From Frankiaceae bacterium (GTDB lineage Bacteria > Actinomycetota > Actinomycetes > Mycobacteriales > SCTD01): DNA of 64,000 nt. The notes under the pieces are model-generated. The model saw only the letters and a list, made by a program, of their open reading frames with translations, was not told where the DNA came from and did no database searches. The translations under genes and the position numbers were made by a program. Positions 58,812 to 62,666 of the stretch are shown here, piece after piece. The stretch's first letter is position 1. Each line of letters begins with the position of its first letter. Location of the stretch: positions 1 through 64,000 of the forward strand of contig JAENVS010000027.1 of the NCBI GenBank assembly GCA_016650445.1, in the 5' to 3' direction.

Positions 58812-60296
58812 CTAGGGGGTCTGCTGCACCAGCACGCGGCCGGTGGCGACCTCGTGGGTGATGGTGCCGTGCTGGAACATGACGGTGCGCACCTCCGGGT
58901 TGAAGCCTGACTTCCAGGGCCACGCACGTACGTCGCGCTCGTCGGCGATCGGGAAGCCGAGGCTGGACGTCTCCGCGCCGAGCTCGACGTACTTCTCCGC
59001 GATCGCCCGGGACAGCCAGTGCGCGTTGGTCACCAGGCTGCCGCTGATGCGGCCGTGCTGGAACTGCTGGAACCGTCCGCTGCCCACGACCTGCTCGCTG
59101 CCGACCGGGAAGCCCAGCGGCCCCGCCTCGGCGTCGGACCGCTCGTAGGCCTCCGTGATGACGTCGTGGGTCAGGAACACCTCGCCGGACCCGAGCTGGG
59201 ACGCGCGACCGTGCTGGAAGCGGGCGAACGCGCCCGCCCCGTTCGCCGTCGCAGTGCTGTCGCTGAGGGGGAAACCGAGGACACCGTCCTCACCCGACGC
59301 CGCGGCGTAGCGGGTGGCGATCGCACCGGTCAGCACGAATGTCCCCAGGTCGGGGTGGTAGCTGATGCGTCCGCGCTGGAACCGGTTCGCCAGGCCACGG
59401 CCGTCCCGGGACACGACCGTGCCGGTGGCCGGGAAGCCGAGCCGCCCGCCCTCAGCACCGGCCGCGACGAACGCGGTGGCGACCGGGTCCAGCGTTTCGT
59501 GCGCACCGGTGGCCGTGCTCGCCGAGATGCGCCCCCGCTCGTAGCGCTGCGCCCGCCCACCGGGCACCGCGATCTCGCCGTACACCGTGTTGCCCAGCTG
59601 CGAGCCGTTCTCACCGAGCCGGATGTAGAGCGCCGTGATGGATGTGTACGCCGTGGGCAGCTGGGCCGAGTTGTGGTTGCGGGTGTTGTTGTCGGTCGCG
59701 GGCGCGGTCGAACACGACTCCCACTTCCACGGGGGTGTGCAGGACACGACCCGGCACGTGACGCCGCCGACTTGCGCGACCTCCTGGTGGCACTGCCCGT
59801 AGCGGAAGGCGTTGCAGCAGATCTTGCGCTGGTCGCACGAGGTGCTCGGCCCGCACGCGCAGGTGCACGACCAGCAGGAGCGGGCGCAGATGCCCGAACC
59901 GCCGCCACCGCAGCGCGAGCACGTCGCGTTGCAGTCGACGATGTAGCGCGCCTTGCCGCCGCACAGCGAGGCGCCGTCGGCCTTCCACCAGCCGGCCGCG
60001 ATCGAGCCCGGCGGACAGGCGTTGATCCCGTTGTTGATGGTGGCGCAGAACACCGTCCAGCCGGAGCCGCAGGTGCTGCCGGGACCGCACACGGCGGCGT
60101 ACGCCGACTGCGGCTTCAGCACGAACCCGACCGTGTCGACGGCGAGTGCGCTCCCGACGACACCGGCGCGGACGAGGAAGCCGCGCCGAGAGGTACGCCG
60201 GCTCAACCAGCCGGTGACCGCGTCGGCCGCCCGCTGTGTCGCCGACGCGCCCGAGGTGCCCCCCAGCGCATGCAGTGCGTCGGCGGTGGCCGTCAT
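58812..60296 (-). CDS. Tat-exported Cys-rich protein (methylamine dehydrogenase light-chain-like) fused to LGFP repeats
   Basis: SRRTSRRGFLVRAGVVGSALAV (Tat), ~20-Cys domain CGSGWTVFCATINNGINACPPGSIAAGWWKADGASLCGGKARYIVDCNATCSRCGGG..., then repeated LGFP motifs (RLGFPATGT, VLGFPLSDS, PLGFPVGSE, SLGFPIADE) alternating with RFQHGRI-type segments. Confidence 0.8.
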   Translation of the reverse strand: MTATADALHALGGTSGASATQRAADAVTGWLSRRTSRRGFLVRAGVVGSALAVDTVGFVLKPQSAYAAVCGPGSTCGSGWTVFCATINNGINACPPGSIAAGWWKADGASLCGGKARYIVDCNATCSRCGGGGSGICARSCWSCTCACGPSTSCDQRKICCNAFRYGQCHQEVAQVGGVTCRVVSCTPPWKWESCSTAPATDNNTRNHNSAQLPTAYTSITALYIRLGENGSQLGNTVYGEIAVPGGRAQRYERGRISASTATGAHETLDPVATAFVAAGAEGGRLGFPATGTVVSRDGRGLANRFQRGRISYHPDLGTFVLTGAIATRYAAASGEDGVLGFPLSDSTATANGAGAFARFQHGRASQLGSGEVFLTHDVITEAYERSDAEAGPLGFPVGSEQVVGSGRFQQFQHGRISGSLVTNAHWLSRAIAEKYVELGAETSSLGFPIADERDVRAWPWKSGFNPEVRTVMFQHGTITHEVATGRVLVQQTP

Positions 60297-60303
60297 GCGG
60301 TGC

Positions 60304-60759
60304 TCATCGCGTCGTTCCGATCGTGAGCCCCTGCAGCAGCCGAGCCACCTTGGTCGCGCCGGGTGCGCGTCGCGCGTGGCTGCCGAGCACGGCGTGCAGG
60401 GAGAACGCGCGTCCCGACACGGAGAAGAACCACTGCGCGCCGGTGTTGCCGGCTCTGGTCCGCTGCAGCACGTCGGGGGAGAAGTCCGACGGCTTGGGGA
60501 CCGGGATCCGGCTCGCCTTGAACAGCACCTTGCCGGCGTCCTTGGCGTCGTACTCGAGCATCGCGATGAAGGCGTCGTCGGGACCCAGAGTCTCGACGAC
60601 GCCGCTGCCGAAGTCGCCGCGCTGCTCAGGCAGGGCCACGGTGGCGGCGTGCAGCAGCACGTTGCCCGGTTGACCGGGTTGCGACGGCGCCTGCCGACGC
60701 ACCCGCGCCTCCCAGCCGGGCGCGAGCTCGAGCCGCAGCCCACCCGCCACCAGGGTCAC
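60304..60759 (-). CDS. hypothetical protein in mau-like operon
   Basis: VTLVAGGLRLELAPGWEARVRRQAPSQPGQPGNVLLHAATVALP...; GTGA overlap with the upstream gene. Confidence 0.65.
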   Translation of the reverse strand: MTLVAGGLRLELAPGWEARVRRQAPSQPGQPGNVLLHAATVALPEQRGDFGSGVVETLGPDDAFIAMLEYDAKDAGKVLFKASRIPVPKPSDFSPDVLQRTRAGNTGAQWFFSVSGRAFSLHAVLGSHARRAPGATKVARLLQGLTIGTTR

Positions 60760-61316
60760 GCTGTGACCGCCAGCGCGACGGCGGCCGCGCCGAGCACCAC
60801 GACGGTGGCCCGGCCGGCGGCCGCGGACATCCGCTCGAGCCCCGCAGCGACGGACCGAAGCCGGTCCGGTGTCGTCGCTGTGCGGAGCAGCAGGATGGGC
60901 AACGCACGCACCAGACCGAAGCAGCTGCCGATGGCCGCGCCGACGACCAGGCTGCCGCCCAGCGCGCACAACGCGAGGGCGGCATAGGTCGCCGCACTCG
61001 TGACGATGGTGACGAACCCGAGTCCGAGCTGGTAGCCGTAGCCCACGCCGTAGACCCACCCGCGGTAGCGCGACAGCCAGTCCTCGTCGACCTGGCGGCG
61101 CACCGTCGGCAGCCGGCGCACGAGGTCGGCGACAGCGGCCACTGCGCAGACCGCCGCCGCGACGATCGGCTGCGGGCTGAACAGGGACCCGAGCGCGCCG
61201 AGTGCTGCGCCGATCGTCAGCCCGCCGAGGACCGACGCGACGACATAGGCCGTCACGGTGGTGCCCCAGCGGTGTCCTCGGGCCCGCTCACCGAGCGGGC
61301 TGATGCTCGTCAGCAT
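60756..61316 (-). CDS. polytopic membrane protein in mau-like operon
   Basis: MLTSISPLGERARGHRWGTTVTAYVVASVLGGLTIGAALGAL...; about six hydrophobic segments. Confidence 0.7.
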   Translation of the reverse strand: MLTSISPLGERARGHRWGTTVTAYVVASVLGGLTIGAALGALGSLFSPQPIVAAAVCAVAAVADLVRRLPTVRRQVDEDWLSRYRGWVYGVGYGYQLGLGFVTIVTSAATYAALALCALGGSLVVGAAIGSCFGLVRALPILLLRTATTPDRLRSVAAGLERMSAAAGRATVVVLGAAAVALAVTA

Positions 61317-61325
61317 CGACTCACC

Positions 61326-61391
61326 TCAAGGGGACCAGGTCGCGCGCAGTGCCGCGATCGTGGCCACGAGGAGACCGGCGAGCAACATCAT
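61326..61391 (-). CDS. micro-ORF MMLLAGLLVATIAALRATWSP (single TM)
   Basis: ATGATG start overlaps the stop of the preceding 28-aa ORF; ends just upstream of the next gene. Confidence 0.35.
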   Translation of the reverse strand: MMLLAGLLVATIAALRATWSP

Positions 61392-61474
61392 GATGTTCGC
61401 TCCAGCAGCGCGCGGCACGCCCGCTCCTTCGTCGCGGGGCACCGCGCACAGATTCCGCTCACGAGCAACATCAT
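61388..61474 (-). CDS. micro-ORF MMLLVSGICARCPATKERACRALLERTS
   Basis: ATG overlaps the TGA of the MauD-like gene; stop overlaps the next micro-ORF start; CxxC motif. Confidence 0.35.
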   Translation of the reverse strand: MMLLVSGICARCPATKERACRALLERTS

Positions 61475-62160
61475 GACGCTTCGTAGAGGCTCGGGTGGCC
61501 CGGCTCGATACCCGCGGCCCGCAGGACGTCGTTGTCGCGCGACTCGCGCACCGCCCCGTTGCCGTGAAGGGCAGTGTCGGCAGCGGCATGGCCCAGCAGG
61601 TTGGCCACCTGCGGCCAGCTCGCACCTGCTCCCTCACCGACGACGCGGCCGTCCTGGACGAGGACGAAGTACGGCGAGCCGGGGACGTCGAAGCCGTCCC
61701 ACCCGGTCGTCGAGCAGACCACCGGCACCACGGCCGGCCGCCGGCTGCGCAGCTCGCTCTCGCTCTCCTCGTCGAGGTCGCGCACCACGACGAGCAGACG
61801 CGCCGCGGCCGGGACAGCCGGAGTGCCCGATGCGAAGGCCGACCAGAACGCCTGGCACGTCGTGCAGCCGGAGGAGAGGAAGGCGAGCAGCGTGCTGCCG
61901 CCCTGCAGCGAGTAGGCCACCGACTCGCCGTCGAGCGTGGTGCCGACGAGGCTGTCGGGCACAGGGCTGTCGCTGCGCCTCGGCGGAACGACGCCGTCGA
62001 TGGTGACCGGCGCCGGACCGTCGCCGGCCCGGTCGAGCTCGAGGCCGGCACCGAGCTCGTGCAGTGCCTTGAGGATCTCGGCGTGGCTGCGCAGGAGACC
62101 TGCGACGAGCACACCGAGCACGAGCACCACCAGGGCGAGGCCGACGATCAGCCCCGTCAC
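61471..62160 (-). CDS. MauD/TlpA-like membrane-anchored thioredoxin-fold protein
   Basis: VTGLIVGLALVVLVLGVLVAGLLRSHAEILKALHELG, LLAFLSSGCTTCQAFWSAF (CxxC), SPYFVLVQDGRVVGEGAGASWPQVANLL. Confidence 0.85.
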   Translation of the reverse strand: MTGLIVGLALVVLVLGVLVAGLLRSHAEILKALHELGAGLELDRAGDGPAPVTIDGVVPPRRSDSPVPDSLVGTTLDGESVAYSLQGGSTLLAFLSSGCTTCQAFWSAFASGTPAVPAAARLLVVVRDLDEESESELRSRRPAVVPVVCSTTGWDGFDVPGSPYFVLVQDGRVVGEGAGASWPQVANLLGHAAADTALHGNGAVRESRDNDVLRAAGIEPGHPSLYEAS

Positions 62161-62666
62161 CGCAGCGCCCGTCGCGAGATCAGCGGAAGCACGGCCAGGG
62201 CGACGTAGGTGACGTAGGCCAGGACGGCGCTGACGACGGCGAGGGGCAGGTCGACTGCCGGCGCTGAGCCCCTCGCGACGACAAGGGCAGCGACGGCGAG
62301 GGCAGCCGTCACGGCGACGTGTCCCGGTGTCGGGGGAGTGTCGGTCTTCCCGAAGCAACCGCACGAGGCCAGCGGGCTCCCGCTGCGCAGCGCCCGCAGC
62401 ACGAAGACCGAGAAGCCGGCGTACGACAGGGCGACCCCCAGCGCGACGATCCGCCCGGGGTGGACGAGAGCGGCGAGTCCGAGCAGGGCCTCGAGCGCCG
62501 CGCCGATGCGCACCCAGCGGGCCAGCAGCGGGGCCCGGACGCGCAGGCCGGCAGCCCGGAGCGCGCGGACCAGCGAGAGCGGCTCGTGCACCTTGGCGAC
62601 ACCTGCCACGATGAGCAGGAGCGCTCCCGCGAGGTAGGGCGCGCTCGCGGCTTCCACCCCATGCAC
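62157..62666 (-). CDS. MauE-like redox-associated membrane protein
   Basis: LAGALLLIVAGVAKVHEPLSLVRALRAAGL...LASCGCFGKTDTPPTPGHV, characteristic CGCFG motif of MauE-like proteins. Confidence 0.85.
   Translation of the reverse strand: MHGVEAASAPYLAGALLLIVAGVAKVHEPLSLVRALRAAGLRVRAPLLARWVRIGAALEALLGLAALVHPGRIVALGVALSYAGFSVFVLRALRSGSPLASCGCFGKTDTPPTPGHVAVTAALAVAALVVARGSAPAVDLPLAVVSAVLAYVTYVALAVLPLISRRALR

Follow-up and report, generated by a model that had tools for sequence, protein, structure and literature searches.

The closest described counterpart of the system analyzed here is the mau cluster of Paracoccus denitrificans, in which mauF, mauE, and mauD lie together with mauA, the gene for the twin-arginine, Cys-rich light chain of methylamine dehydrogenase (MADH). 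Paracoccus requires MauE and MauD to metabolize methylamine (van der Palen 1997, cited in PMC7794033), and PMC7794033 describes homologues of both outside mau clusters, in Streptomyces candidate clusters for ribosomally synthesized and posttranslationally modified peptides (RiPPs). We analyzed the first 64,000 nucleotides of contig JAENVS010000027.1 from a Frankiaceae bacterium (assembly GCA_016650445.1), hereafter the window. Its minus strand likewise encodes MauF, MauE, and MauD homologues clustered with a twin-arginine, Cys-rich protein, which we call the client, and with a small conserved protein. In the MauF homologue, the codon of an invariant cysteine is TGA, which we predict to be read as selenocysteine (Sec).

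Several differences separate this module from what has been described. Compared with the Paracoccus mau cluster, it lacks MauB and MauG, and the MauF cysteine is replaced by UGA. Compared with Paracoccus MauA, the client is far longer, carries LGFP repeats and 20 Cys, and has no match to PF02975. As far as the available portion of PMC7794033 goes, the RiPP clusters share the MauE and MauD homologues, neither MauF nor an LGFP client is mentioned, and no selenocysteine is reported for them. C-terminal LGFP repeats are common to the client and to Corynebacteriales proteins such as PS1 (PDB 6swz/6sx4), whose other domains differ, and a PDB search returned no Cys-rich domain of the client type. With the known prokaryotic selenoprotein families (PMC13188914), the MauF homologue shares an in-frame UGA, Cys homologues, a downstream hairpin, and a thiol-redox context, and its UxxS spacing is seen in other such families. 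Table 1 of PMC13188914, which in 2026 inventoried 119 families and subfamilies of prokaryotic selenoproteins, lists nothing MauF-like and no WSPU family. In our literature search, no paper connected MauF with selenium, and none was a biochemical study of MauF.

The UGA codon of the MauF homologue

The original prediction, made from a list of open reading frames (ORFs), placed two micro-ORFs and a membrane protein between mauD and the small protein. The second micro-ORF (61391-61326) and the membrane-protein ORF (61316-60756) are in fact one reading frame containing a single TGA at 61328-61326, with ...RATWSP-TGA-GES-MLTSISPLGER... across the site. With UGA as the codon of its key cysteine, the gene came out split in the earlier ORF list. 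MauF was overlooked, and the operon, taken to be MauE, MauD, and a client, is better described as a mau F-E-D set with a client and a predicted selenoprotein.

We compared the joined protein with MauF of Paracoccus and Methylobacterium using hhalign and obtained a probability of 99.3% (E 4.9e-20) over 181 columns, with the similarity taking in WSPC(G)xS and RxQVPxx...G.G.G...TY. Paracoccus MauF has STWSPCGYSS at the equivalent place, and the TGA occupies the codon of the invariant WSPC cysteine. The shared motif and the long alignment identify the protein as a MauF homologue in which Sec would replace the invariant Cys. Its membership in the MauF family is thus established by sequence, and, with no MauB in the module genomes searched, it would have no MADH to mature. 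No Pfam or NCBIfam model matches it, and a PDB profile search gave no significant relative. A link to CcdA/DsbD, which the SPC motif might suggest, was rejected as unsupported by the family, Foldseek, or PDB profile searches. In the class sample, proteins of about 190 aa at loci L123-L135 match the MauF profile in its C-terminal part only and are without the WSP(U/C) segment.

Relatives fall into two states at this codon. Each relative with the membrane gene after mauD has, just upstream of that gene, an ORF of 21-27 codons ending ALR(A/S)(T/S)WSP-TGA, and other lineages have an unbroken ORF with TGC at the TGA codon (...RSLWSPCGLSMLTSITPFGER...). Within the main group, every UGA-type sequence (60/60) has TGA, the codon is always TGC in the Cys homologues examined, and homologues covering the site in the class and phylum samples carry TGA or Cys there and nothing else. 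In-frame stops occur in 63 of 89 MauF alignments, versus 2 of 297 for the other four module genes (one at a MauD C-terminus, the other in a client located where its contig ends). Genome G669 has, besides a Cys-type copy elsewhere, a second, divergent MauF-like copy (TG-U-GTSM; contig C81, locus L175) that the motif search missed.

Coding conservation extends to both sides of the TGA. Upstream of it, synonymous and nonsynonymous codon differences number 1899 and 2637 in frame, versus 545 and 3871 or 427 and 3866 in the other frames (synonymous shares of 1899/4536, 545/4416, and 427/4293). The Ser and Pro codons immediately 5' vary synonymously, including AGC versus TCN, and in the first codon 3', GGN, each of the four bases occurs at the third position. 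The AlphaFold2 (AF2) model of the read-through product is a single folded protein (pLDDT 94.6). In-frame conservation on both sides, together with this single fold, argues that the TGA is decoded.

If the TGA were instead a true stop, it would close a 21-residue membrane micropeptide, perhaps a leader or arrest peptide ending in W-S-P, and a shorter MauF would start at the next ATG. Most loci do have a Shine-Dalgarno-like GAGGTGA and an ATG downstream of the stop, and some arrest peptides typically have a proline before the stop. However, the three codons from TGA to ATG retain G-E-S with synonymous changes, one locus (L049) has GTG where the others have ATG, and the Cys homologues are unbroken through the site. 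Full-length proteobacterial MauF has the WSPC segment in mid-protein, AF2 folds both parts as one, and tRNA-Sec is usual in UGA-type genomes. We therefore regard a true stop as highly improbable, and the reading of the second micro-ORF as a micropeptide or arrest peptide was rejected given the in-frame TGA and the Cys homologues.

Two hairpins directly follow the TGA, GATGCT...AGCATC and then CCCGCTC-GGU-GAGCGGG. Their stems pair at 100% and 92% in 43 UGA sequences versus 58% and 53% in 23 Cys sequences, and none of 1000 shuffles attained the observed pairing. The apical loop in the main group is GGN (25 GGU, 14 GGG, 4 GGC). A GGU apical loop is a known feature of the bacterial selenocysteine insertion sequence (SECIS), as in E. 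coli fdhF. In one subgroup, the second stem is shifted and its loop is GGUC; in the divergent group, the hairpin bases differ and the pairing is retained.

The genome of the window encodes the machinery for Sec, with tRNA-Sec at 71.8 bits, SelB above cut-off, and SelA adjoining SelB. Across 107 genomes, tRNA-Sec (≥56 bits) is present in 70/83 of the UGA type versus 8/24 of the Cys type (Fisher p 3.5e-6, an upper claim, as is the linkage p-value, because the genomes are related and both values overstate independence). SelB above cut-off adds four UGA-type genomes, in a search that covered part of this type. In six genomes, where 0.4 are expected, no more than 10 kb separates mauF-Sec from tRNA-Sec; in genomes G005 and G009, one stretch of about 10 kb takes in the module together with selA, selB, and tRNA-Sec. 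Proximity of the module to sel genes recurs in several families.

Besides the relatedness of the genomes, several points weigh against the selenocysteine assignment. The Rfam SECIS search matched no family, and Foldseek found no significant structural relative of MauF. In the searches run, 9/83 UGA-type genomes have neither tRNA-Sec nor SelB above cut-off; these are mostly draft assemblies, yet G061 and G592 are each 98% complete. On the tree, the U and C states require a minimum of only two changes. Finally, Sec insertion itself is something we infer from sequence. Read-through by other means, through near-cognate insertion of Trp or Cys or an altered code, is known for UGA in bacteria generally but scarcely credible here, as in-frame stops are confined to MauF among the module genes, the alternate residue is always Cys and never Trp, the SECIS-like structure is limited to the UGA type, and the genome encodes Sec machinery. 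Taken together, the interchange of UGA and Cys, confined to exactly one codon across the phylum, the coding conservation, the SECIS-like pairing, the Sec machinery, and the restriction of stops to MauF make it near certain that the UGA is decoded as selenocysteine.

Operon layout and conservation

The genes run leftward from 62666 to 58812 on the minus strand as a compact operon in the order MauE-like protein, MauD-like protein, MauF-family membrane protein, small protein, and Cys-rich exported protein (Table 1), in agreement with the tight gene set originally described. The assignment of MauE is confirmed by PF07291 (E 5.5e-13, 49.8 bits, above the gathering cut-off of 27). The MauD assignment is provisional: the CxxC and the position beside mauE fit it, and the sole Pfam match is a weak, sub-threshold one to Thioredoxin_7. 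The C-x-x-C is conserved across its homologues. MauD homologues adjoin MauF in nearly all module loci, and MauE-like homologues are found in most complete ones. The small protein has no Pfam or NCBIfam match.

The first micro-ORF is probably not a gene either. It contains a CxxC and falls within an insertion of about 80 bases found only in the window and flanked by repeated ATGATGTTGCTCG. The compared relatives all lack it, and their mauF begins at the mauD stop.

Table 1. Features of the mau-type operon in the window, in order of transcription
Feature	Position	Strand	Details
MauE-like membrane protein, 169 aa	62157..62666	-	GTG start, SCGCFG motif
MauD-like thioredoxin-fold protein, 229 aa	61471..62160	-	N-terminal membrane helix, CTTC motif
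Micro-ORF 1, 28 aa	61388..61474	-	Probably no gene; falls in an insertion that only the window carries, between mauD and mauF
MauF-family membrane protein with in-frame UGA, 211 aa	60756..61391	-	Residue 22 predicted to be Sec; joins micro-ORF 2 and the earlier membrane protein
UGA codon, WSP-U-GES	61326..61328	-	Predicted Sec; TGA/Cys interchange among relatives
SECIS-like double hairpin	61282..61317	-	GATGCTGACGAGCATC (61317-61302); GCCCGCTCGGTGAGCGGGC (61300-61282, GGU loop)
Small conserved protein, 151 aa	60304..60759	-	Conserved module member, consensus lHaA..pLP..RGDfGsG
Tat-type client, 494 aa	58812..60296	-	20-Cys domain and LGFP repeats; SRRGFL motif, PF08310

The five genes recur as a set, arranged in no fewer than three ways (E-D-F-small-client, E-client-D-F-small, and D-small-E-client-F). 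Such recurrence in different orders is well beyond chance, and the five genes therefore form a functional unit. By these comparisons, the operon is real and conserved across Actinomycetota. Relatives of the Cys-rich domain were found in 31/200 genomes of the same order, plus 35 public genome records. A search of the operon DNA against plasmids gave no match.

The Cys-rich client and its putative folding unit

The description of the client as a protein of the twin-arginine translocation (Tat) type, with about 20 Cys and LGFP repeats, was confirmed in its sequence. It has a twin-arginine N-terminus (SRRGFL), 20 Cys, and C-terminal LGFP repeats (PF08310, E 1.1e-41). Its conserved pattern is CPPG...GWWKAD...RYY.DCN...FRYGQC...CRvvsC, in which CPPG, GWWKAD, RY, DC, FRYG(Q)C, and CR...C are the invariant motifs. 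Among 38 genomes in which the MauF-like match is strong, 36 also carry the client; it occurs in 0/14 genomes without MauF. One of the two genomes outside the 36 (G875) carries a client truncated at a contig end. In two Cys-type genomes (G701 and G918), the client is not adjacent to mauF.

Two individual clients stand apart. The client at the contig end in G875 (locus L154) has a TGA as the codon of the invariant Cys in FCCTIN, a single case that reflects either an error in the sequence or a second site of Sec. In genome G035 (L086:5864-8566), the client ORF does not end after the LGFP repeats but runs on into a domain of the GDP-mannose 4,6-dehydratase type, as either a real fusion or a frame artefact.

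We consider it likely that the operon, including its UGA-encoded MauF, is devoted to the oxidative folding of a single exported, disulfide-rich protein of the cell envelope. By analogy with the mau system, the client would be exported via Tat, and MauD, with its CxxC, would reduce or isomerise client disulfides on the external side of the membrane. Electron transfer, or thiol-selenol exchange, through the membrane would fall to MauE and MauF, with the MauF selenol at the centre of the exchange. Once folded, the client would be kept at the cell wall by its LGFP repeats, and the small protein may partner the client or MauF in the cytoplasm. In short, MauD, MauE, and MauF-Sec most likely act by oxidation and isomerisation on a cell-wall protein of their own that is rich in disulfides. 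Whether electrons flow toward reduction or toward oxidation is itself inferred, and the topology of MauF is putative, both of which count against this proposal. Client folding by the module, the wall location of the client, and the role of the small protein are likewise proposals.

Divergent MauF-Sec proteins (FGPUGLSM or WSPUGLS) at loci L176, L177, L179, L189, L180, and L188 adjoin MauD, mostly MauE, and other Tat-type Cys-rich proteins with at least 10 Cys, which represent further client families. Among the different Tat-type Cys-rich proteins beside divergent MauF-Sec in other families, a pairing that also favors a folding role, one has a borderline match to CWB2, a cell-wall-binding domain. 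MauD, MauE, and MauF might then serve a general thiol-disulfide exchange of the envelope, with the Cys-rich protein as one substrate among others, as the pairing of divergent sets with different Cys-rich proteins would allow. This is rather unlikely, however, since every set has its own Tat-type Cys-rich gene and the client and MauF co-occur nearly one to one.

The client had also been likened to MauA. The likeness holds for the CPPG and Cys-rich layout and does not extend to family membership. The client has no match to PF02975, the MauA family, to which Paracoccus MauA scores 180 bits in the same library, and hhalign of its mature domain with MauA gives a probability of 2.4%. A full-length hhalign value of 94.6% hinges on the twin-arginine signal region and was not taken as homology. 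Foldseek matches of the client are weak and nonsignificant (E 3-9), mostly to light chains of MADH or aromatic amine dehydrogenase (AADH). With no significant support from Pfam, hhalign, or Foldseek, membership in the MauA family was rejected. By these tests, the client falls outside the MADH light chains; its layout (Tat region, CPPG) and the weak Foldseek matches mean that it may still be a remote homologue of one.

The partners of MADH are missing as well from the genomes searched. MauB, which the original prediction had noted as absent from the window, was found in 0/23 module-bearing genomes (PF06433; the genome of the window and 22 others), and MauG was found in 0/13 (PF03150); the Paracoccus record was positive in both searches. 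Mau maturation genes that occur without MauB and MauG and serve a Cys-rich exported protein probably do not act in amine oxidation. The earlier proposal that MauD and MauE fold a disulfide-rich envelope protein in some other role is thus favored by these absences and by the co-occurrence of client and MauF, with disulfide folding as its presumptive part.

It is less likely still that the client is a quinoprotein-like subunit with a Trp-derived cofactor at GWWKAD and that the operon matures some dehydrogenase. MauD, MauE, and MauF are all present, the Tat signal, the Cys-rich layout, and the light-chain Foldseek matches recall MauA, and the W-W pair is invariant. Yet the tryptophan tryptophylquinone (TTQ) of MADH joins two separated tryptophans, whereas the only invariant tryptophans of the client are the adjacent W36-W37; MauB, MauG, and PF02975 are all absent in the searches, and the LGFP tail indicates a role at the wall.

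More tentatively, and at somewhat less than even chance, a phylum-wide MauF-Sec family drives a membrane redox relay for single wall clients, and the module is a main reason that many Actinomycetota keep Sec machinery, with mauF-Sec beside selA, selB, or selC in several families. Standard annotation splits mauF-Sec in two and loses the active residue, and our data point to a widespread Actinomycetota selenoprotein family outside the 2026 inventory. The placement of a selenol at the one invariant cysteine of MauF offers a direct target for experiment. More broadly, mau maturation genes occur apart from methylamine dehydrogenase and are likely to form a folding unit for other Cys-rich exported proteins.

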